This document shows, in pieces, positions 1 to 7,858 of a stretch of DNA of 64,000 nucleotides. The notes beneath the pieces were generated by a model. It saw nothing but the letters and a program-made list of their open reading frames with translations, did no database searches and was not told where the DNA came from. Source of the stretch: Aestuariivirga sp. (GTDB lineage: Bacteria > Pseudomonadota > Alphaproteobacteria > Rhizobiales > Aestuariivirgaceae); the NCBI RefSeq assembly GCF_020252395.1, contig NZ_JADCDB010000005.1, positions 1-64,000 of the forward strand, written 5' to 3'. The position numbers and the translations under genes were made by a program. Positions within the stretch are counted from its first letter, which is position 1; every line of letters starts with the position of its first letter.

Positions 1-126
1 CACCTCAGAGCCAAAGCAGCACGCACCATCGATGATCTCCGGAAGGCCATCGGAAACATCTGCTCGCTCTTCACTCCAAACGAATGCGCCAACTACTTCG
101 CCGCCGCAGGATATGGATTCAATTGA
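1..126 (+). CDS. IS630-family transposase, C-terminal end (5' part outside window)
   Basis: Frame 1 is open from the first base to a TGA at 124-126 and encodes 41 residues ending in LFTPNECANYFAAAGY. The pattern LFTPxECxNYFxAAGY is what I remember as the C-terminus of IS630-type DDE transposases; the catalytic part lies to the left of the window. It marks the left edge of a lower-GC accessory island with the methyltransferase and ATPase genes. Whether the element is intact cannot be judged from here. Confidence 0.75.
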   Translation, partial: HLRAKAARTIDDLRKAIGNICSLFTPNECANYFAAAGYGFN

Positions 127-143
127 CCGCCCGATGCTCTAAA
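127..143. repeat. Possible right end of the IS element
   Basis: Directly after the transposase stop the sequence contains GATGCTCTAAA (133-143). The same 11 bases recur at 6803-6813, exactly beside a truncated gene. IS630 elements normally end soon after the transposase stop and insert at TA, so this may be a terminal inverted repeat abutting a TA target. That reading is inference; the left end is not in the window. Confidence 0.3.
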
Positions 144-299
144 GGATGAACTAGCGTTAGGCACCCGACTCACGGCAAGGCTAGGGTCCCCCAAGAATCA
201 ACCCGTTCTTCATGATTCACCCGCATGCTGCATTTGATCTGATAGTTAACGGGTGCTCTCCAAATCCTGGGCTTGCCCCGGATCTTCTTTAGGGGTTCA

Positions 300-1589
300 A
301 TGGGCGCGAAAGGCAGACAACCAGCATTTATTGATGCCTTCGCTGGCTGCGGAGGACTTTCGCTCGGTTTGATGCAAGCCGGCTTGAAAGGCCTATTCGC
401 CGTTGAGAAGGACAATTTTGCGTTCGCCACGCTGCGTCATAACTTGATCGATGGTGACGGGACCAACAAGTTCGACTGGCCCAAATGGCTTGAGCAGCAG
501 CCGAAGGCAATCGAAGACCTGTTGGTTGAACACCAAGACGCCCTTGTTGCCCTCCGGGGGGAAGTTGACGTGCTCGCTGGTGGGCCGCCCTGCCAAGGCT
601 TTTCCTCTGCTGGTCGCCGGCGCTCGGACGACCCCCGCAACCGGCTTTTCAAATCCTACGTCGAACTCGTGCGGCTCGTAGAGCCGCGCATCGTGCTCAT
701 GGAGAATGTAAAGGGCTTCACCCTAAGCTTCGGCGGGCAGGAAGGCGTCGACAACTACGCGAGCAGCCTGCGGAACCTCTTATCCGATCGCTATCGCGTT
801 CACGAGCGCCTTTTGGATCTCTCAAGGTTTGGCGTGCCGCAACAACGGATCCGATACATCCTGATCGCTCTGCACCCGTCTTGCGGTGACGTCGACCCCT
901 TCAAGATTATTGAAGAAAGGATGGCGAGCTTTTTGCGATCGCAGCGTCTGCAGGCGCCGGTTAGCTCCTGGTCAGCGATCTCTGACCTTGAGACCGGGAA
1001 GGTCGGCGTCCAGCCCAGCACTGACACACCTGGCTTCAAAGAGACGCTTCCGGCCATGCGCATCACCTCCTACCAGAAGCTGATGGGTGAGGGTGCGGAA
1101 GGCGTCACTGATCTGCGCCTGGCGCGCCACGCCAGCGAGATTGCAAGGCGCTTCGCTGAGATCATTGAAAGCTGTCATGCTGAAGGGCGGCTAAACACCT
1201 CGATCGGCGCGGAGACCCGGCAGCGGTACGGACTGAAGAAGTTGGCGCTGCGTGTGCTTGATCCCGATCGTCCTTCACCTACGATCACCAGCATGCCGGA
1301 TGACCTCCTACATTACAGCGAACCTCGAACGCTAACGGTGCGCGAGAATGCTCGCCTACAGTCATTCCCCGACTGGTTCGCCTTCAAAGGCAAATACACC
1401 ACAGGCGGACACCGCCGACGTCTTGAGGTTCCCAGATTTACCCAAGTCGCTAACGCAGTGCCGCCGCTTGCGGCCTGCGCGATCGGCGAAGCCCTTCTTG
1501 CGATAATGAAAATGCCCGTAGCAAAGAATAAGCCGCTAGCGAGCAGAAAGGCCCGCGTGGAGCAACCGGAACTCATTACGCAGTTCTAG
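300..1589 (+). CDS. DNA (cytosine-5-)-methyltransferase
   Basis: A 429-residue C5 cytosine methyltransferase that would transfer a methyl group from S-adenosylmethionine to cytosine in a specific DNA site. Motifs appear in the usual order: SAM-binding IDAFAGCGGLS (residues 11-21), the catalytic loop GGPPCQGFS with nucleophile Cys98, ENV (135-137), QQRIR (181-185), a variable target-recognition stretch of about 190-330, and motif X NAVPP near 385-389. I chose ATG 300, behind AGGGG at 291-295, rather than the upstream TTG at 273. No cognate type II endonuclease is next to it. Its last 54 bases overlap the 3' end of the opposite-strand receiver gene. It could be an orphan methylase or the self-marking part of the neighbouring module. 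Confidence 0.93.
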   Translation: MGAKGRQPAFIDAFAGCGGLSLGLMQAGLKGLFAVEKDNFAFATLRHNLIDGDGTNKFDWPKWLEQQPKAIEDLLVEHQDALVALRGEVDVLAGGPPCQGFSSAGRRRSDDPRNRLFKSYVELVRLVEPRIVLMENVKGFTLSFGGQEGVDNYASSLRNLLSDRYRVHERLLDLSRFGVPQQRIRYILIALHPSCGDVDPFKIIEERMASFLRSQRLQAPVSSWSAISDLETGKVGVQPSTDTPGFKETLPAMRITSYQKLMGEGAEGVTDLRLARHASEIARRFAEIIESCHAEGRLNTSIGAETRQRYGLKKLALRVLDPDRPSPTITSMPDDLLHYSEPRTLTVRENARLQSFPDWFAFKGKYTTGGHRRRLEVPRFTQVANAVPPLAACAIGEALLAIMKMPVAKNKPLASRKARVEQPELITQF

Positions 1590-2462
1590 CAAAGCGCGGC
1601 GCAGCGCGCGCATTTCGTCCAGCGCGACGACTTGCCCGTTAGCGCCTGCGATTCCGAATGGCTTCCCGTCGGGTGTCAGAACCTTGTGACCCAAAACGTT
1701 TCGCTTAGGCACGATGTCCGCCATGTACCGTTTCACGCTGGCCTGATGTCCTTGATGAATCGCGAATGCTGGTAGGTCGAGCAAGCGTGAAAGGATGCGC
1801 AGGCCGTCGTTAGCCGTGAAAGTTGCGTGGGCCTTCAGGATGTCCACTACCGCTGGGCTGCCCTTAAGCTTCGCAATGGCCCGCTCAACGTTGGGAACCT
1901 TCTCATCAAGCAGGTCGATCATTTCTCTGAGGACGCCCGCCTTGCCAGCATTGTCGAGCATGTCGTGAGCAAGTTGCAAGCATTCGCGAGCCATCTGGTC
2001 GACGTCACTGGTCGCACCCATCACAATCCCCCTCGTGTGGTCCAGATCCAGCACCTTCTTGATCATCACATGAAAGAGCTGGTTAACCTCTTCGGGCAGC
2101 TCGTTTCTAGAGACAAAATAAACGCCTTCGTGGCCTTCAGCGAAGGAAGCACGCCGCAATTCGAGAATGTCAATGTTGGCTGAGTAGAAGACAACATCTT
2201 TATAGGCGATGTGACATCGTATCTCAGAGATTACAGTCTCGCCACGTAGCCCTGCACCGAGGTCCCAATCAACCAAGATTAGGTCAACCTCATCGCGGAA
2301 AAGGTCATCGCCCAAATAGCGAGTCACATCGTTCATTGTGGCGCAGAACGTAGGCTTCAGTTCGAAGCCTTCGTCGGCCATGATCCGCGTCAAGTTAGTA
2401 ACGGCACCAGCCACCATACGCTGTTGGTCTTCCACCCACAGGACATTAAAATCTAGCCTCAT
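1536..2462 (-). CDS. Receiver-domain protein with HEPN-like C-terminal motif
   Basis: A 308-residue protein. Residues 1-125 look like a response-regulator receiver: acidic pair E11/D12, likely phospho-acceptor D65 in ILVDWD, and S94 in VVFYSAN. The usual switch lysine is replaced by Arg (R119). Residues 140-308 look mostly helical, match no DNA-binding output domain I know, and contain KRNVLGHK, in which R254-N255-xxx-H259 fits the RNxxxH catalytic signature of HEPN ribonucleases. The start ATG overlaps the stop of the upstream ATPase gene as ATGA (2459-2462), so the two are translationally coupled and probably partners. Inference: the ATPase/kinase controls this protein, which could be an RNase effector. 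The HEPN assignment rests on one short motif. Confidence 0.75.
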   Translation of the reverse strand: MRLDFNVLWVEDQQRMVAGAVTNLTRIMADEGFELKPTFCATMNDVTRYLGDDLFRDEVDLILVDWDLGAGLRGETVISEIRCHIAYKDVVFYSANIDILELRRASFAEGHEGVYFVSRNELPEEVNQLFHVMIKKVLDLDHTRGIVMGATSDVDQMARECLQLAHDMLDNAGKAGVLREMIDLLDEKVPNVERAIAKLKGSPAVVDILKAHATFTANDGLRILSRLLDLPAFAIHQGHQASVKRYMADIVPKRNVLGHKVLTPDGKPFGIAGANGQVVALDEMRALRRALLELRNEFRLLHAGLSAR

Positions 2463-4813
2463 GTTCGTTTCCGAGCTGGTGCGATGACGACCTGAAAGGC
2501 GATACCACGACCCTCGTAATCACGGTTAAGCTCAATGCTACCGTTCATTTCACCAAGCACTTGGCGTACGTGATACAGGCCTAGTCCCGAGCCCGTGTTC
2601 GTGGCAGTGTAGCCCATGTCAAAGATGCGGTTGGGGTCAACTCCTCTGGCGAGGCCTTGGCCATCATCCACCACGTCAATAACAAGTGCGTTGTCTTCAT
2701 CGCGGCCATGGATGTCGAAATTGATTCGAGGAGCCCTCGCCTTTTTCGCATTGCTGACGAGGTTCTCGACCACGATTGAGATATCCATGGGGTTGAAGCG
2801 CAAGGTCAGGCCAGAGTGACTGTTGGTCACGGAAATTCTAGTGCCTTTGCCTAACGATAGGCGCTCGAGCTTCGATACGTAGTCCTCGATGAAAGCGGCT
2901 AGGTCTGTCTCGATCATGCCCGAGTCCAATTCAAAATTCGCCATCGTAGCGAACTTTGATGCGGCCTGGATGCGGCGGTTCAAGATTGAAATTTGTTCCA
3001 GTGCAGCGACGACTACATCGCGCGAAATAACAGCTTGCTCCGTTGTACCACGCAGAAGGTTCTCGATCTGCTGGTTCAACTCAAACGCGTATATTCCAAC
3101 TTGATGCTGAAGGTTGATCGTGCGAGCGACGTCCAAGCTAACGATGCTGTCAAGAAAATGCGCCCGTCGTCGCTCAATCTCCACCTCGGCTTCGGCCCGA
3201 AGTGCGCGTTCATTTGCTCGCAGCGCAGCAGTCCGCTCTTTGTCGGCCGCCTTGCGTGCTTCGACCTCGGCTCGTTTCAGTTCGTCGTAGCGCTTCTCGG
3301 CCGTTTCCAGTCTACGAAGGAAGTCCTTATCACCTGTCTTTTCAGCAATAGCACGAAGGCTGCCTAGCGACGCCTCGAAGCCGGCGGAGCGTTCATTCAG
3401 GAGGCCGACTAGACGGCGGCTGTAGTCCAATAGCTCGACCTCATCGTTGTCGACTAGCTTTGCAACAGCGGTGGAGACTCGCGCTCGTCCGGCATCCGTC
3501 AGCAAGCGCGAAACATCCTCGGCGCTAGCGTCGGCGCTGTCTGCCCACGACACGGGCACAACGTACTTTTCGAGCCGCTTCAGGCAATGTTCTGTGAAGC
3601 AATTTTGCAACTCGCGCACAGCCGGTGTCTCAATCAGGCCTTGGTTGCGGCTTGAAGCTTCTTGGAAGTCTTCGTCAGTACCAAAAACATCGACCCGCCC
3701 AATGATCTCGCGGCTGCCGAGAAACCGCGAATAGCCTTGCTGCTTGCGGCGGTCATAGCCGAACCAGTCGTTGGCCTCCTCCCCAATGGGGAAAACCCGG
3801 AAGCCATTGCGGAAAAGGAAGACCGAGCCGAAACGAACTGAGGGCAAGCCGACCCGGCGCGCAAAGGTCTGCTTGGCAGACTGGTTCAGGTAATAGAGCT
3901 CGCAGCGGAAGCCAGCGTCGCTGAGTAGGCCGTAGGGATTGGGCTCTCGTATCTTGTAAACGACTTCGCCACGATCGGTCAGCGTCGAACTGATCCAATC
4001 ACCGCTAATCTCAACCTCGATGAACGTCGTCTTCCCGCGCAAATCCGAGAAAATGAAGTTGCCAACGCGGCCGTTGACGATATCTCGCGAGGAAAGCTCC
4101 TTCCCTTTGGCTTTCGACTGTGCCTCTAGAGCCTTGTCCTTCTCCAACTCGTCCGGAGCGGTGATGTGGATCACAAAAGAGTCCGTCGCGCTACCGAACG
4201 GGTTAATGAGCTTGGCGAGCGCGGCTTTCAGGGATTTCAGGTCTTCTCGCGTCCAGATGTGACGAAGTCTTTGGATCTCAATGATCGTGCCGTGTAAGAG
4301 TTTTGCGCCAAAATCCTGAAGTTCCGGCGGGACTTCGAACCGTTCGATGTCGCTATAGTTGAGTGGTATCGTCTCAAACCGTTGGGTATCATCCTTTTCA
4401 AAATCATCCCAGTTGATATCCAGGCGGTGAATTTCTGAGCCGCCCTTCTCTGGACGACTTTGCAAGATGATCGTTTGGCCAAGTCGGTCCGAGGAAAATC
4501 GACCAATACCCTTGCTGCCAGCGAAATGGCCGCGGCTCGATGCCTTATCACGATAATCGCGATTTGCGTCCCGCTTCGAGGAATAGGCGACGAACAGCCA
4601 CTTCTTTTCGAGGTCGTCTCGGTCCATCCCCGAGCCATCATCTGCGACGATGATTTTCTCGGAATCGAAGAAGAGGTGGACGTTCGATGCTCCGGCATCG
4701 AACGAATTCTTGACCATCTCAAAAATCGCAACTTCGTCATCGGTGATCAGTTCGCGGCCAAGGACGCGCTTGAGCCCGACGCTGACGTCGAAATGAAGCT
4801 TACTCTTGGCCAA
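2459..4813 (-). CDS. Dual GHKL ATPase: MORC/HSP90-like N-terminus, histidine-kinase-like C-terminus
   Basis: A 784-residue protein with two Bergerat-fold ATPase modules. The first has E32/N36 in FEMVKNSFDA, DDGSGM (58-63) and GSKGIGRFS (99-107), as in HSP90/MutL/MORC proteins, followed by a probable S5-like region to about 400. A charged coiled coil spans about 495-550. Then comes an H-box-like segment with H570 (NLQHQVGIY), and a second ATPase module with N box around N688, DDGQG (716-720), FDMGYTAT (731-738) and GSGLGLYHV (741-749), typical of histidine kinases. No signal or membrane segment is visible, so it is cytoplasmic. Translation starts at TTG 4813, 33 bases after the small upstream gene, and its stop overlaps the receiver gene. 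It probably senses something and phosphorylates or gates the receiver protein. Confidence 0.85.
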   Translation of the reverse strand: MAKSKLHFDVSVGLKRVLGRELITDDEVAIFEMVKNSFDAGASNVHLFFDSEKIIVADDGSGMDRDDLEKKWLFVAYSSKRDANRDYRDKASSRGHFAGSKGIGRFSSDRLGQTIILQSRPEKGGSEIHRLDINWDDFEKDDTQRFETIPLNYSDIERFEVPPELQDFGAKLLHGTIIEIQRLRHIWTREDLKSLKAALAKLINPFGSATDSFVIHITAPDELEKDKALEAQSKAKGKELSSRDIVNGRVGNFIFSDLRGKTTFIEVEISGDWISSTLTDRGEVVYKIREPNPYGLLSDAGFRCELYYLNQSAKQTFARRVGLPSVRFGSVFLFRNGFRVFPIGEEANDWFGYDRRKQQGYSRFLGSREIIGRVDVFGTDEDFQEASSRNQGLIETPAVRELQNCFTEHCLKRLEKYVVPVSWADSADASAEDVSRLLTDAGRARVSTAVAKLVDNDEVELLDYSRRLVGLLNERSAGFEASLGSLRAIAEKTGDKDFLRRLETAEKRYDELKRAEVEARKAADKERTAALRANERALRAEAEVEIERRRAHFLDSIVSLDVARTINLQHQVGIYAFELNQQIENLLRGTTEQAVISRDVVVAALEQISILNRRIQAASKFATMANFELDSGMIETDLAAFIEDYVSKLERLSLGKGTRISVTNSHSGLTLRFNPMDISIVVENLVSNAKKARAPRINFDIHGRDEDNALVIDVVDDGQGLARGVDPNRIFDMGYTATNTGSGLGLYHVRQVLGEMNGSIELNRDYEGRGIAFQVVIAPARKRT

Positions 4814-4846
4814 TAGATCCGCCCGCTCCCAGTTCCCTAGATGTAG

Positions 4847-5101
4847 TCAGCGACTCAGCAAACGACAGTTTGATAACATGCCTGCCTTGTACTCGTCTGG
4901 ACAGACAAATAGGAGCATCCGCTCTTGGACAAGCTTAATCGCAGATGATCGCCATTCCGGATCGTTGCATTGCTCGAAAGCCCTCGGAGCAGGCGAATCA
5001 AGTGTCACAGAAAGCTCGATGGGGAACGACCAAAAATCCACTGTCTGCCCCTCGCGGACCGAACGACGTCCGGATATCGCGCAACTCAGTTTTTTAGTCA
5101 T
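4847..5101 (-). CDS. Small hypothetical protein upstream of the ATPase
   Basis: An 84-residue reading frame starting MTKKLSCAISGRRSV. Its ATG (5101-5099) overlaps the TGA of the preceding frame as ATGA, and its stop lies 33 bases before the ATPase start, so it is laid out as an operon member. I recognise no domain; the sequence has three scattered cysteines and no membrane segment. Its composition matches the low-GC island. It may be a small regulator or antitoxin-like partner of the ATPase-receiver pair, but this is positional inference only. Confidence 0.5.
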   Translation of the reverse strand: MTKKLSCAISGRRSVREGQTVDFWSFPIELSVTLDSPAPRAFEQCNDPEWRSSAIKLVQERMLLFVCPDEYKAGMLSNCRLLSR

Positions 5102-5295
5102 GAAGTACTGTCTGGGCCATATCCTTTTCTCCACCTTCTGAGCAGCACGTCCTCTCCACGCCTCCGCATTTGACTGGAATACCGCCTGAAGGACTCCTCG
5201 CTCGCGGCTAAATACTTGATATGACCGTTGACCTCCTCAGCAAGGCACCGGTAGGTCCAGTCGGGGCGCTCGACGATCAGGTACTCGGAGCCCGC
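5098..5295 (-). pseudogene. Open frame without a good start, coupled to the 84-residue gene
   Basis: Directly after the TAG that ends the XRE-like frame, the same frame stays open for 65 codons (SEYLIVERPDWTYRCLAEE at its start) and ends in a TGA overlapping the next ATG. The coupling suggests a once-translated gene, but the only in-frame ATG is at codon 43 and no GTG or TTG precedes it. It may be the C-terminal part of the regulator gene cut by a nonsense codon, or a decayed separate gene. No homologous domain was recognised. Confidence 0.35.
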
Positions 5296-5537
5296 CTACC
5301 TGAGTCCAGCAATATGGCCAACTGCAGCAGCCGGATCAAATCCGAGAATGCTGCCGAGCTCTATCAGTTCAACCACGTCCACGCGCCGCTGGCCGCTCTC
5401 CAGCCGCGCAACGTAGCAAGTTGATTGGCTGCGTTGGGTTTCTTGTAGAGGCCGGCTGGCCGGAAGCCCGCCAACTGTTCCAGAGTTTGCCAGAGCTTCT
5501 TCAGTAGTGGTGTAAGCCCCTTCCACGATCCACCCAT
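5296..5537 (-). pseudogene. Frameshifted XRE-type helix-turn-helix regulator
   Basis: One frame from ATG 5537 reads LTPLLKKLWQTLEQLAGF, like helix 1 of an XRE repressor. After a frame change near 5420-5450, another frame reads YVARLESGQRRVDVVELIE and LGSILGFDP, which is the typical end of an XRE helix-turn-helix domain. The two halves together give one HTH domain, so the gene appears broken by a frameshift. Such regulators commonly control restriction and defence genes; here it would have been the first gene of the island operon. A sequencing error cannot be excluded. Confidence 0.55.
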
Positions 5538-5581
5538 ACGTGACGTACCGGCCGCGTGACCGCCCTGTTGGGCGGTTGATG

Positions 5582-5633
5582 CAATGGCCATGGGCGCGGG
5601 GTCCTCAGGCTGGGCGGCGCCCGATGGCCATTG
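5582..5633. repeat. Long inverted repeat / hairpin
   Basis: CAATGGCCATGGGCGC at 5582-5597 pairs with GCGCCCGATGGCCATTG ending at 5633 with one bulge, around a loop of about 19 bases. It lies 38 bases past the DUF1269 stop and at the right edge of the accessory island. There is no T run, so it is not a classical terminator; it may stop or stabilise the DUF1269 transcript, or mark an island boundary. Confidence 0.5.
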
Positions 5634-5671
5634 TTTGTTCAGGCGGCAGCGATCGGCGAACCCTGGCTGCC

Positions 5672-6178
5672 TCAGGTGGCGGGTGCTTGCTTCACATGCT
5701 CGTCGAGCGCGTCGCGCAGGGCTTTTTCTTTGGTTTCGTCGAGCGAGGTGCGCAGCACGGTGCCGCCATGGGGGGCGAGGTCGGCCAGCACCTTGTCGGC
5801 GGTCATGTTCTTGACGAGCAGGAACAGCGCGGCATTGCCCGGCTTGATCGCTTCGGCCACGCCCTTCATGAAATCGTCCCTGATGCCGTAATCGCTGAGC
5901 TTGCCGCCCAGCGCACCCGCCGCCGCGCCCAGCAGCACGCCGGCCAGCGGCATCATGAACAGCAGGCCGACGAGGAAGCCCCAGAAACTGCCCGAAGCCG
6001 CGCCGGCGGCAGTGGTGTTCAACAGCTGATTGAGCTTGATCTTGCCGTCGGCGTCCTTGACGACCACCACGGCATCCTCCAGCGAGATCAGATACTCGTT
6101 CTGGAGCTCCAGCACGCGCTTGCGGACAGTTTCCGCCTTTTCCTCGTTCTCATAAGTAATCGCAATAAGATCGGCCAT
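5672..6178 (-). CDS. DUF1269 family membrane protein
   Basis: A 168-residue protein matching the DUF1269 type: an N-terminal MADLIAITYENEEKAE segment of ferredoxin-like character, then a glycine/alanine-rich hydrophobic stretch (about residues 60-95, including GFLVGLLFMMPLAG) that probably forms one hairpin in the membrane, and a C-terminal soluble part with LVKNMTADKVL. ATG 6178 was chosen because a perfect AGGAGG lies 6 bases upstream (6185-6190), in preference to the TTG at 6184. Function is not known for the family; members are often stress-associated. It is not co-directional with any partner and appears to be a single gene. Confidence 0.85.
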   Translation of the reverse strand: MADLIAITYENEEKAETVRKRVLELQNEYLISLEDAVVVVKDADGKIKLNQLLNTTAAGAASGSFWGFLVGLLFMMPLAGVLLGAAAGALGGKLSDYGIRDDFMKGVAEAIKPGNAALFLLVKNMTADKVLADLAPHGGTVLRTSLDETKEKALRDALDEHVKQAPAT

Positions 6179-6367
6179 CCGCAACCTCCTGTCAGCGCAT
6201 ATCCCGGGTGGCGTTCAACCGTCCCGCCGGGCCCATGGGACATCATTACCGGCCAAACCAGGCGTTCACAAGCGGCAGAGCGCGGTGTTCATCCGTGCCG
6301 GGTGGATGAGAGCGTGTTTGGCGAGGGGGTCCGGATCGTGCCTGGCCTTGCCGGCGACGGCTCCCCG

Positions 6368-6793
6368 TCATGGGCCGGGCGGCGCGTGTCCGGCTGGCGC
6401 CCCGCCCCGGGCGATGTGGCCCGCAATATATTCGGCATCGGCCCACACGCCCCAGATGAAGGCGGAGGCGCGGCGCGACAGCCAGGGGAGGCCAAGGAAA
6501 TAAAGCCCAGGCGCTTTGCTGGAGACGCCACGCTCATGCGCGGGCCTGCCCTTGCCGTCGAAGGCGTCGAACTTGATCCAGCCGAAGTCCAGCGCATAGC
6601 CGGTGGCCCAGACGATGGAGCTGACGCCGGCCTGCGCGAGGCCGTACCGAAGGGCGGCATGGGAGACACCGTCCGGAGACATGCATAACGCATTTGCCTG
6701 ATCCGGAGGGAGGCGGGCGATGCCATGGGGAACCGCATCCGGGATTGAATTGAAGAAGGAGTTCTGCGATTTGGCCTGCGTCGAAGGAGCCAA
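6368..6793 (-). pseudogene. C-terminal remnant of a flavin-containing monooxygenase
   Basis: About 140 residues resembling the C-terminal third of FAD-dependent monooxygenases: IVWATGYALDFGWI (the conserved ATGY motif), then GLYFLGLPWLSRRAS and FIWGVWADAEYIAGHI. The N-terminal FAD- and NADPH-binding GxGxxG domains, roughly 250 or more residues, are missing; the frame begins just past the ugpC-like stop. The break point at about 6793 is followed within 10 bases by the 11-mer shared with the IS end at 133-143, so an insertion or deletion mediated by that element is plausible. Not expected to be functional. Confidence 0.75.
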
Positions 6794-6794
6794 C

Positions 6795-6813
6795 CTCCGG
6801 CTGATGCTCTAAA
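6795..6813. repeat. Second copy of the putative IS-end sequence
   Basis: GATGCTCTAAA at 6803-6813 is identical to 133-143, with similar C/G-rich bases before it. It lies at the junction between the truncated monooxygenase and the ABC ATPase stop codon (6809-6811). It may be the scar of an excised or deleted element; an 11-base match alone can arise by chance. Confidence 0.3.
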
Positions 6814-7858
6814 TTCTTGCCCCGCCCGCCGCATCGAACAGATAGCAGCGCGCCACGTCGAAGCTGAGGCCGATCGGCGTTTCGAGCTCCTGGCGGAAGT
6901 TGCGCGCGCCCTTGGCGACGACCATCTGCTCGCCGGCGAGTGCCGAGACCAGTGTCTGGTCGCCTGTCGGTTCCAGCGAATAGAGGCTGGAATTGAGATG
7001 GCCCTGGCCGGGGGCGGCCACCGAAATATCCTCCGGGCGGATGCCGAGGATGACGCCCTGGCGGCTTCCCTTGCCCACACCCTCGACGCGCGTCGAAGGG
7101 CCGATGAAGGCGCCGTTCTCGATGTCGCCCTTCAGCAGGTTCATCGGCGGCGAGCCGATGAAACCGGCGACGAAGACATTGGCGGGGTTGTTGTAGACCT
7201 CGTCGGGCGTTCCCAGCTGCTGGATCTTGCCCCTGTTCATGATGGCGATGCGGTCGGCCAGCGTCATGGCCTCGATCTGGTCATGGGTCACATAGACCGT
7301 CGTCGTCTCCAGCCGGCGCTGGATGTGCTTCAATTGCGCGCGCATGGTGAGGCGCAGCTTGGCGTCGAGGTTGGACAAGGGCTCGTCCATCAGGAAGACG
7401 CGCGGATGGCGCACCACGGCGCGCGCGAGCGCTGCGCGCTGGCGCTGGCCGCCGGACAGGGCGCGCGGCTTGCGGTCAAGCAGATCGCCCAGCTCCACGA
7501 TGGCGGCGGCCTCGCGCACCATCCGGTCGTGCTTTTCCTTCGGCACGCCGCGCATGCGCAAGGGAAAGCGGATGTTCTCGTAGATCGTCATATTGGGGTA
7601 GAGCGCGTAGGACTGGAACACCATGGCCACGTCCCGGTCGCGCGCGTCCACGTCGTTCACCGTCTCGCCGTCAATCAGGATCTCGCCGCCCGTCGGGTCT
7701 TCGAGGCCCGCAATCATCCGCATGGTCGTCGTCTTGCCGCAGCCCGAGGGGCCGAGGAAAACCATGAACTCCTTGTCGCGGATGTCGAGGTCGATCGCAT
7801 CCACGCCGACCACCGGGCCCCAGGCCTTGCTGATCTTGTTGAGGCTGATCGATGCCAT
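6809..7858 (-). CDS. ugpC: ABC transporter ATP-binding protein, UgpC/MalK type
   Basis: A 349-residue ATPase of the CUT1 carbohydrate-import class (MalK/UgpC/MsmK). It has Walker [10 protein letters not shown] (36-44), Q loop FQSYALYPNM, signature LSGGQ (134-138), Walker B VFLMDEP (154-160), H-loop VTHDQIEAMTLADR, and a C-terminal TOBE/regulatory region with GIRPEDI. A GGGGAG ribosome site precedes ATG 7858. No permease or solute-binding gene is beside it: downstream is the truncated monooxygenase, upstream the divergent oxidoreductase operon. It may have lost its partners or may serve several sugar transporters, as such ATPases can. The symbol is a family label; the substrate cannot be read from sequence. 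Confidence 0.88.
   Translation of the reverse strand: MASISLNKISKAWGPVVGVDAIDLDIRDKEFMVFLGPSGCGKTTTMRMIAGLEDPTGGEILIDGETVNDVDARDRDVAMVFQSYALYPNMTIYENIRFPLRMRGVPKEKHDRMVREAAAIVELGDLLDRKPRALSGGQRQRAALARAVVRHPRVFLMDEPLSNLDAKLRLTMRAQLKHIQRRLETTTVYVTHDQIEAMTLADRIAIMNRGKIQQLGTPDEVYNNPANVFVAGFIGSPPMNLLKGDIENGAFIGPSTRVEGVGKGSRQGVILGIRPEDISVAAPGQGHLNSSLYSLEPTGDQTLVSALAGEQMVVAKGARNFRQELETPIGLSFDVARCYLFDAAGGARI

Follow-up and report, generated by a model that had tools for sequence, protein, structure and literature searches.

A methylase-linked pairing of a dual-GHKL kinase with a HEPN-like receiver protein as a candidate defence cassette in Aestuariivirga

Introduction

What does a GHKL ATPase sense, and on what does its partner act, when its gene lies beside those of a receiver-domain protein and a DNA methylase? 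We addressed this question at one end of a 64,000-nucleotide stretch of DNA from Aestuariivirga sp. (the window), where a sequence-only reading had proposed a defence system in which a dual-GHKL protein relays phage or modified-DNA sensing, through a receiver, to an RNase.

Layout and composition of the locus

Open reading frames and Pfam matches place a 784-aa protein, a 308-aa protein and an intact C5 DNA methylase together in the window. The genes of the 784-aa dual-GHKL sensor kinase (2459..4813, minus strand, TTG start) and of the 308-aa receiver and HEPN-like protein (1536..2462, minus strand) share an ATGA stop/start overlap of 4 nt (2459..2462, minus strand), bearing out the coupling first noticed in the letters. 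The gene of the 429-aa C5 cytosine DNA methyltransferase (300..1589, plus strand) is convergent to the receiver gene, as had also been noticed, and the 3′ ends of the two overlap by 54 nt. Pfam assigns the methylase to PF00145 (2e-47) and PADLOC only to the generic MTase_II model (6.8e-78). Residues of its PPCQG, ENV and QRR-type motifs are at least 97% conserved in the 32 cassettes described below. GC content is 55.8% at 127–5530, against 65.5 ± 1.3% in 28 two-kb blocks of 6001–62000; these values replace the earlier estimate of about 50% against about 70%.

The sequence-only reading had also placed a broken XRE regulator and two small frames upstream, and an IS630 end at the edge. By eye, the XRE-like regulator is split over more than one frame; its longest frame (5296..5526, minus strand) gives a weak Pfam match to HTH_31 (E 0.077). 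At a related locus, L054, an 83-aa ORF lies upstream of the cassette; Pfam identifies it as HTH_3, and it shares 69% identity with this frame over 39 aa. The broken regulator is thus upheld. An upstream frame of 95 aa finds no relative (E 1e-4) among the ORFs of 40 related loci; we rejected it as a cassette component on that ground, and it is probably not a gene. At the contig edge a transposase-like frame, presumably of IS630, ends with its final 41 aa (1..126, plus strand). Four other contigs in this genome carry copies at their base 1 with 98–100% identity, and the contig therefore breaks within a multicopy element; this part of the earlier claim stands, while the 41 aa draw no Pfam match.

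With its putative controller broken, the cassette could be silent in this genome. A decaying, unexpressed island would agree with that broken controller, with the IS-like end at the contig edge and with a receiver that has no relative among the 99 other genomes searched, but the three main genes are open and carry the residues common to all relatives, and we regard decay as very unlikely.

Related loci and correlated divergence

We kept 40 related loci from several phyla and prophages, each with a relative of the receiver and each fetched by the receiver protein alone. This family was found only by whole-genome searches and alignment-based scans; a contig scan with the window receiver alone returned no relative, and no relative of any receiver tried turned up in the plasmid and phage collections. 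Weak receiver matches were left out as generic (L006, L024–L028), L030 and L004 were set aside because they duplicate L055 and L063, and the PF19192 proteins (L010–L019) served for contrast only. L023 (G702) falls outside the 40, with a receiver frame that ends at about 153 aa; this frame lies 110 nt from a contig end and does not reach the HEPN part. The aligned sets comprise 38 receivers, 34 kinases and 32 cassettes. Many of the GTDB loci come from metagenome bins, and the host named for any one of them may be mistaken.

A dual-GHKL gene adjoins the receiver gene at all 39 loci where the contig permits it (L036 begins at the receiver; L044, L058 and L063 show only the C-terminal part of the kinase), and the two genes overlap by 4 nt in 32 of the 39 related pairs. 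A lack of conserved pairing, which would have told against the sequence-only reading, is therefore not seen. A C5 methylase is present at 38/40 loci; of the two without one, L029 ends at a contig edge and L059, which has Vsr, shows no match in 16.9 kb. Across the 32 cassettes, Mantel comparisons give a divergence correlation (rho) of 0.92 for receiver and kinase, 0.69 for receiver and methylase and 0.71 for kinase and methylase, so that the methylase follows less well than the other two follow each other; none of 2000 permutations reaches the observed rho for any of the three pairs. Judged by the linkage counts, the association of this gene set is far beyond chance.

A kinase with two GHKL modules

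Both GHKL modules recognised earlier in the 784-aa protein are matched by Pfam, as HATPase_c_3 at residues 27–151 (1.9e-21) and HATPase_c at 676–776 (2e-19), and no other Pfam family matches this protein. The first module extends over about 26–183 and is followed by a beta-rich middle region, which by analogy may be S5-like, and by a coiled coil at about 479–545; the AF2 model then shows a DHp-like hairpin carrying H570 (559–624) and the HATPase_c domain (about 634–777). All 34 aligned kinases keep H570 and the core positions of the two GHKL motif sets, except that K101 and G720 are kept in 33. In plasmid records, 74 contain partial matches to the kinase, none of which spans 80% of it.

The N-terminal GHKL module is related to ATPases of restriction systems. 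The NCBIfam model for BbrUII/HgiDII (NF050001) matches residues 16–218 (E 3.5e-26, 91.9 bits), and PADLOC returns partial kinase matches only, namely REase_II over 16–132 (1.5e-12) and three weaker ones. The shared ground with BbrUII/HgiDII is a homologous N-terminal GHKL region and a methylase neighbour. One could hence read the locus as true restriction, with the GHKL protein cutting unmodified DNA and the receiver tuning it: the family name implies cutting, and two better BbrUII/HgiDII matches (L082, L083) likewise adjoin genes similar to the window methylase. However, the match ends at residue 218 of 784, far below the model's cut-off of 550 bits, and the remainder differs, being modelled as beta-rich region, coiled coil and kinase core, with no nuclease domain detected by Pfam in the whole protein. 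We accordingly rejected the kinase as a BbrUII/HgiDII restriction enzyme, and consider DNA cutting by this protein highly improbable.

A receiver with a HEPN-like tail

In the 308-aa protein, a receiver domain (about 1–120) precedes a helical C-terminal domain (about 140–306). Among the 38 aligned receivers, D65 is kept in all, D12, S94 and R119 in 37 each, and position 11, a Glu in the window protein, is E or D. The acidic pair, phosphoacceptor Asp and Ser/Thr of a receiver are thus present, and the usual Lys appears only in the conservative form of Arg 119. Since this Arg (37/38) and, in the kinase, a Gln rather than an acidic residue at 571, next to H570 (34/34), depart from the usual pattern, phosphotransfer may be unusual or lost. 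Pfam Response_reg matches 28 of 38 family members at E up to 0.5, the window protein not being among them.

The codons of R254-N-V-L-G-H259 (1686..1703, minus strand) spell an arginine followed by N and, four residues on, a histidine, the form of the HEPN motif R-x4-6-H, whose second residue is N, D or H; translation and alignment put this motif and D65 exactly where the sequence-only reading had them. R254, N255 and H259 are invariant in 38/38 receivers, down to 19% identity, and make up three of the six invariant residues of the C-terminal domain. RNxxxH occurs in the tail of 40/40 receivers, against 8/171 other ORFs of 250–400 aa in which it was sought anywhere. In the AF2 model (pLDDT 87), helices span 140–167, 171–187, 189–200, 205–210, 217–227, 231–258 and 281–306, the motif ending helix 231–258 ahead of a loop and the last helix. 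HEPN domains are described, in excerpts of PMC3710099, with the motif where helix 3 ends and the loop leading to helix 4 begins, and with an insert between helices 2 and 3; the predicted secondary structure agrees with this excerpted description in motif position, helical domain and insert.

Profile comparisons are more mixed. A profile of the C-terminal domain, run against 1443 ORFs, has as its best match outside the family a protein that Pfam classes as HEPN (E 5.8e-4); the two align at KRNxLAH. In a control with 14 HEPN proteins (leaving out L078, a 111-aa frame at −1.7 bits and rank 469) the AUC is 0.95; most of the 14 score below 5 bits, so it is the rank shift, not single scores, that carries this control. 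Pfam HEPN_RiboL-PSP is found in 3/38 family members, at best with 3.6e-4 and under cut-off, and the window protein has no Pfam HEPN match at E 0.1. Non-HEPN helical families score similarly in the same scan (PTRF_SDPR, 2e-4 in a single member; PEP-utilisers_N, best 0.0047, in 4/38). With hhalign the domain reaches 4% probability against seven aligned HEPN proteins, at a score of 22 versus 8.7–13.2 for controls (five shuffles, one reversal and the N-terminal domain), and 20% against one HEPN protein. Sequence searching found no solved structure for the receiver protein. The earlier HEPN reading thus gains from 40 relatives, the predicted structure and the profile search, and lacks a strong family match; we grade the sequence support for the assignment as moderate.

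Genomic setting

Seven loci adjoin phage replication, terminase, tail, Erf or integrase genes, and in another genome of the window's genus this slot is occupied by a different C5 methylase and GHKL set, in keeping with the earlier expectation that relatives would show no steady housekeeping context. At one further GHKL locus, L093, an Abi_2 gene is present and the stretch examined contains no methylase. Inspection by eye of the gene clusters common to at least three loci revealed no restriction endonuclease other than Vsr. Against the mechanism proposed below, an HNH endonuclease gene adjoins the cassette at two of the 40 (L031, L066).

This inspection bears on the view that kinase and receiver form a two-component regulator of a methylase or restriction system, the receiver controlling restriction-modification genes or activity instead of being a toxin. 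Such a role was proposed in print for the sister HEF_HK/Response_reg_2 pairs, in the excerpted text of PMC8011034, and would suit the near-constant methylase neighbour; yet the shared clusters inspected show no restriction endonuclease but Vsr, Pfam finds no DNA-binding domain in the window receiver, and an invariant RNxxxH is unexpected in a plain regulator, which makes this view quite unlikely. A selfish addiction module is unlikely as well. There, loss of methylation, not phage, would trip the kinase, and the RNase would kill cells that lose the cassette; a methylase and toxin-like effector on mobile DNA, the correlated divergence of the three proteins and the adjoining phage genes all accord with it, but turnover of a defence island would account for the alternative cassette at the same site equally well or better. 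As the machinery is the same, addiction amounts to a different trigger, not a different mechanism.

Relation to known systems

The closest published kin are HEF_HK (PF19191) and Response_reg_2 (PF19192), a two-component-like pair beside C5 methylases and related to paraMORC (Bellieny-Rabelo et al. 2021, PMC8011034, excerpts), whose receiver proteins are described there as having no other known domain. The excerpted account shares with our locus the kinase plan HATPase_c_3, DHp-like region, HATPase_c, the adjacent receiver gene and the C5 methylase and Vsr neighbours (PMC8011034). The receiver domains of the two families align over 87 columns (hhalign E 3e-6, probability 88%). Nevertheless, PF19191 has no match in the window's genome at E up to 10 and PF19192 none in the window protein or its genome, so we rejected membership of this pair; across the family, Response_reg_2 matches 12/38 members at E up to 0.5, the best at 1.4e-4 and 22.5 bits versus a cut-off of 27. 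H570 is followed by Q in the window family and by E or D in HEF_HK, as far as the excerpts of PMC8011034 describe it, and Response_reg_2 proteins are 542–721-aa frames with another, unnamed output region and RNxxxH in 1/10, whereas ours are 298–324 aa with the HEPN-like tail. Given the shared kinase plan and receiver fold and the short HEPN-like output, we therefore treat the window family as a sister variant with a predictable effector.

No model of PADLOC-DB 2.0.0 matches the window receiver; over the 38 family members ten models give matches with E no higher than 0.01, and nine of these models each match a single member. With the receiver unmatched, the kinase partial and the methylase generic, a named PADLOC system was rejected. 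The earlier statement that no named system fits accordingly holds for PADLOC and the Pfam pair, and needs amending for the kin published in 2021 (PMC8011034, excerpts).

Other systems share single elements. MORC/paraMORC ATPases in restriction-modification operons, proposed to loop DNA for the endonuclease (Iyer et al. 2008, PMC2292703, in part), are likewise N-terminal GHKL ATPases near cytosine methylases and Vsr, but the term 'receiver' is absent from that text. VcSduA, a Shedu protein with a paraMORC3-type GHKL, offers a precedent for our reading, since its ATPase is thought by its authors to govern a nuclease and mutating either activity abolishes phage defence; its nuclease is, however, a fused PD-(D/E)xK, and the excerpts describe no kinase core, receiver or methylase (PMC12137116). 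VapK-VapS-VapC also has a GHKL kinase whose phosphorylation unleashes an RNase toxin, but the substrate is a STAS-domain protein, the toxin VapC, and no methylase is described in the excerpted account (PMC13373217). Ymh-type HEPN-paraMORC proteins couple a HEPN RNase to a paraMORC ATPase beside restriction-modification genes, there by direct fusion and with no kinase or receiver relay in the part of the source on this family (PMC3710099). The DefensePredictor legend, as excerpted, includes predicted but unvalidated systems that contain HATPase and REC domains, and a HEPN-receiver fusion was not among the matches listed from the open-licence literature.

Proposed mechanism

We consider it marginally probable that the locus encodes a methylase-guarded, phosphorelay-switched RNase module, serving as a phage-defence and possibly also an addiction cassette. 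For its signal, phosphotransfer, RNase activity and phage protection we infer the following course from the computed parts, linkage and setting. The methylase would mark the host's own DNA, and the N-terminal GHKL module would engage DNA and respond to what is unmarked or foreign, its conformational change switching on the C-terminal DHp/HATPase_c kinase. The kinase would then autophosphorylate H570 and pass the phosphate to D65 of the receiver, which may free or dimerise the C-terminal HEPN domain; RNA cleavage by that domain would end in growth arrest or aborted infection. It is a tentative possibility that this constitutes a new restriction-modification logic, with a restriction ATPase that has given up cutting DNA and acts through a His-Asp phosphorelay on a HEPN ribonuclease, and with unmethylated DNA leading to RNA destruction. 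It would then be, as far as we know, the first two-component system to use an RNase toxin, gated by DNA methylation, as its response regulator.

Implications

The two-component-like pairs reported in 2021 beside C5 methylases had an unnamed output domain, and the sister family found here has a short output with an RNase-type motif. Methylation state, phosphorelay and RNA cleavage thereby become testable as one circuit, through H570, D65 and H259. If the proposed course is right, restriction-modification, two-component signalling and abortive infection would be joined in a single cassette whose occurrence spans several phyla as well as prophages, and unmarked phage DNA would be answered by the destruction of RNA, not by the cutting of DNA.

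Gene content of the cassette

Three open genes occupy the leftmost 5.5 kb of the window: a C5 cytosine methylase gene (300-1589, + strand; PF00145, 2e-47) and, on the opposite strand, the genes for a 784-aa dual-GHKL protein (2459-4813, -) and a 308-aa receiver protein (1536-2462, -), the latter in ATGA overlap with the stop of the former. Pfam places HATPase_c_3 at residues 27-151 and HATPase_c at 676-776 of the 784-aa protein, and the XRE-like controller upstream of the cassette is broken. The gene set described in the sequence-only reading (two GHKL modules, ATGA coupling, a DNA methylase and a broken XRE regulator) is confirmed with small corrections, and its interpretation as a defence system is partly supported. 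The low-GC island it proposed is real but less pronounced than the near 50% against about 70% then given, with the three-gene tract at 55.8% versus 65.5 +/- 1.3% in 28 two-kb blocks from the rest of the window. A transposase-like end of 41 aa (1-126) stands at base 1 of this contig and of four others of the genome, and this multicopy element explains the assembly break at the window's left end.

Linkage and distribution

Relatives were collected with the 308-aa receiver protein alone as query, from viral contigs (9 loci), GTDB contigs (29 loci) and a few other genomes. After copies, weak matches and one truncated match were left out, 40 loci remained (8 viral, 29 GTDB, 3 other); among the relatives found, the closest is at most 49% identical to the window receiver. 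The dual-GHKL gene adjoins the receiver gene in all 39 testable loci, with an overlap of exactly 4 nt in 32 of the 39 pairs, so the pairing proposed from the window is conserved across genomes. C5 methylases are present in 38/40 loci, and in 31 the methylase and receiver genes converge; of the loci without one, one stretch (L029) stops at a contig edge, and the other (L059) gave no methylase match in 16.9 kb and has Vsr. Pairwise identities across 32 complete cassettes correlate at 0.92 for receiver-kinase, 0.71 for kinase-methylase and 0.69 for receiver-methylase (0/2000 permutations each).

By-eye inspection of gene clusters common to at least three loci revealed no restriction endonuclease except Vsr, relatives of which occur in 10/40 loci; Pfam confirmed the three such ORFs that were checked. 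Only two cassettes adjoin an HNH endonuclease gene (L031, 5578-6522; L066, 8989-9930), the pair being related at 57% identity, and an extra nuclease can therefore join the cassette. Record titles assign the hosts to Pseudomonadota, Acidobacteriota, Verrucomicrobiota, Ignavibacteriota and others, many being metagenome bins; short neighbouring branches join copies titled beta-/gammaproteobacteria and Eremiobacteraeota, which suggests that the cassette may have been transferred between hosts.

Genomic context

Nine of ten hand-picked neighbour genes scanned against PHROGs matched: a replication nickase (L032), a terminase (L033), a tail fibre (L034), an Erf recombinase (L035), a tail protein and a DNA methylase (both L037), integrases (L031, L066) and a polymerase that is not phage-specific (L036). 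The receiver was absent from the 99 other genomes searched, which include 36 congeners. In one of these (G031), the counterpart of the window's right flank (88% identity) has another set of genes before it (L123, G031:C31:36000-46300, 3269-7754): they encode a different C5 methylase, a protein with HATPase_c_3, one with Methyltransf_35 and one of 269 aa. Beyond them lie a gene for an amino-acid kinase (by eye, pyrH) and a ribosome recycling factor gene. The site has therefore held at least two methylase-plus-GHKL sets in the genus. These phage-type neighbours, seen in several loci, and the variable slot do not amount to a steady housekeeping context.

Beside methylase and GHKL genes in two settings, L123 (3269-4078, +) and L082 (588-1382, -) encode homologous proteins of 264-269 aa (27% over 134 aa, E 2e-13), for which Pfam and PADLOC gave no match; these may be another partner of GHKL restriction ATPases.

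The predicted sensor kinase

All 34 full-length kinases share the core residues of both GHKL motif sets (K101 and G720: 33/34), along with H570 and Q571, which follows it. The AF2 model (pLDDT 79, pTM 0.52) orders an N-terminal ATPase, a beta-rich middle region that may be S5-like by analogy with MORC/MutL, a coiled coil to residue 545, a helical hairpin (559-590/598-624) that includes H570, and a terminal ATPase fold. In plan, the protein is a histidine-kinase core behind a MORC/MutL-type ATPase. HEF_HK and HisKA are reported (PMC8011034) to carry an acidic residue after the His, whereas this family has Gln, and kinase activity is for that reason only predicted.

A match to the BbrUII/HgiDII restriction-enzyme family (3.5e-26) covers residues 16-218 but scores 92 bits where the family cut-off is 550. 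L082 passes that cut-off and L083 reaches 315 bits; both adjoin genes that resemble the window methylase gene. Such genes also neighbour other GHKL proteins, relatives of the window kinase in its N-terminal part, in L084, L087 and L094; in L093, an Abi_2 gene takes the methylase's place.

The receiver protein and its HEPN-like tail

Residues 1-120 of the 308-aa protein form a receiver domain: D12, D65 and S94 are kept in the family, Arg replaces Lys at 119 in 37/38 proteins, and Pfam Response_reg matches 28/38 members (E up to 0.5), the window protein itself giving no Response_reg match in the Pfam scan. The remainder is helical in the AF2 model. Its only invariant residues among 38 proteins are R144, G145, D155, R254, N255 and H259, and R254-N-x3-H259 fits the HEPN active-site rule. 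The motif lies at a helix end, followed by a loop and the last helix (pLDDT 87), in agreement with the placement described in PMC3710099.

RNxxxH occurs in the tail of 40/40 receivers versus anywhere in 8/171 other like-sized ORFs. A profile of the C-terminal domain ranks 14 HEPN proteins above 1380 other ORFs (AUC 0.95), and its best outside match is a Pfam-recognised HEPN protein (E 5.8e-4) aligned through KRNxLAH. Pfam HEPN_RiboL-PSP matches 3/38 receivers, at best 3.6e-4 and under cut-off; profile-profile probability against HEPN is 4-20%, individual members match unrelated helical Pfam families with similar scores, and sequence searches found no solved structure. The window protein itself gave no Pfam HEPN match, and sequence support for the HEPN tail proposed earlier is moderate.

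Relation to published systems

Among systems in print, the HEF_HK/Response_reg_2 pair comes closest (PMC8011034): it is described with a linkage of 91.6% across 644 regions, with C5 methylases and Vsr in the vicinity, and with kinship to paraMORC. The two receiver types align (hhalign E 3e-6 over 87 columns), and 12/38 members of our family reach weak Response_reg_2 matches. Scans of the window proteins and genome, however, matched the window's pair to neither Pfam model, and the outputs differ: ten Response_reg_2 proteins used as contrast have frames 542-721 aa long, and one of the ten contains RNxxxH, whereas the family here has a short HEPN-like tail. By eye, the C-terminal region of the contrast proteins (L010-L019) is long, and a Cys-Asp motif recurs in it. 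Membership was rejected because both models failed and the outputs differ, and we call the pair a sister variant. The earlier statement that the gene set could not be matched to a named system holds at the level of Pfam models, but close published kin with a shared plan exist.

Proposed mechanism

We lean slightly towards reading the cassette as a phosphorelay that is guarded by the methylase and sets an RNase free. Computation establishes the components and how they are coupled; the steps that follow are predictions. The methylase would guard, the sensor kinase would read a DNA signal, and phosphate would pass from His to Asp, kinase to receiver protein, releasing RNA cutting by the HEPN-like tail and so phage protection. 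A pure addiction role would use the same machinery, and we consider it rather unlikely.

One further gene family occurs in 4/40 loci (L005, 2433-2873, directly after the receiver gene; L048, 1523-2161; relatives in L032 and L033), and the one member tested, from L048, is a PNKP-type polynucleotide phosphatase (HAD_PNKP, 9.9e-30). An RNA-end repair enzyme next to a putative RNase would fit.

The cassette would work like VapKSC, whose RNase is released by a kinase (PMC13373217), like HEPN-paraMORC fusions (PMC3710099) and like VcSduA, whose nuclease is described as being under GHKL control (PMC12137116), but with a His-Asp relay that links the sensor to the RNase.
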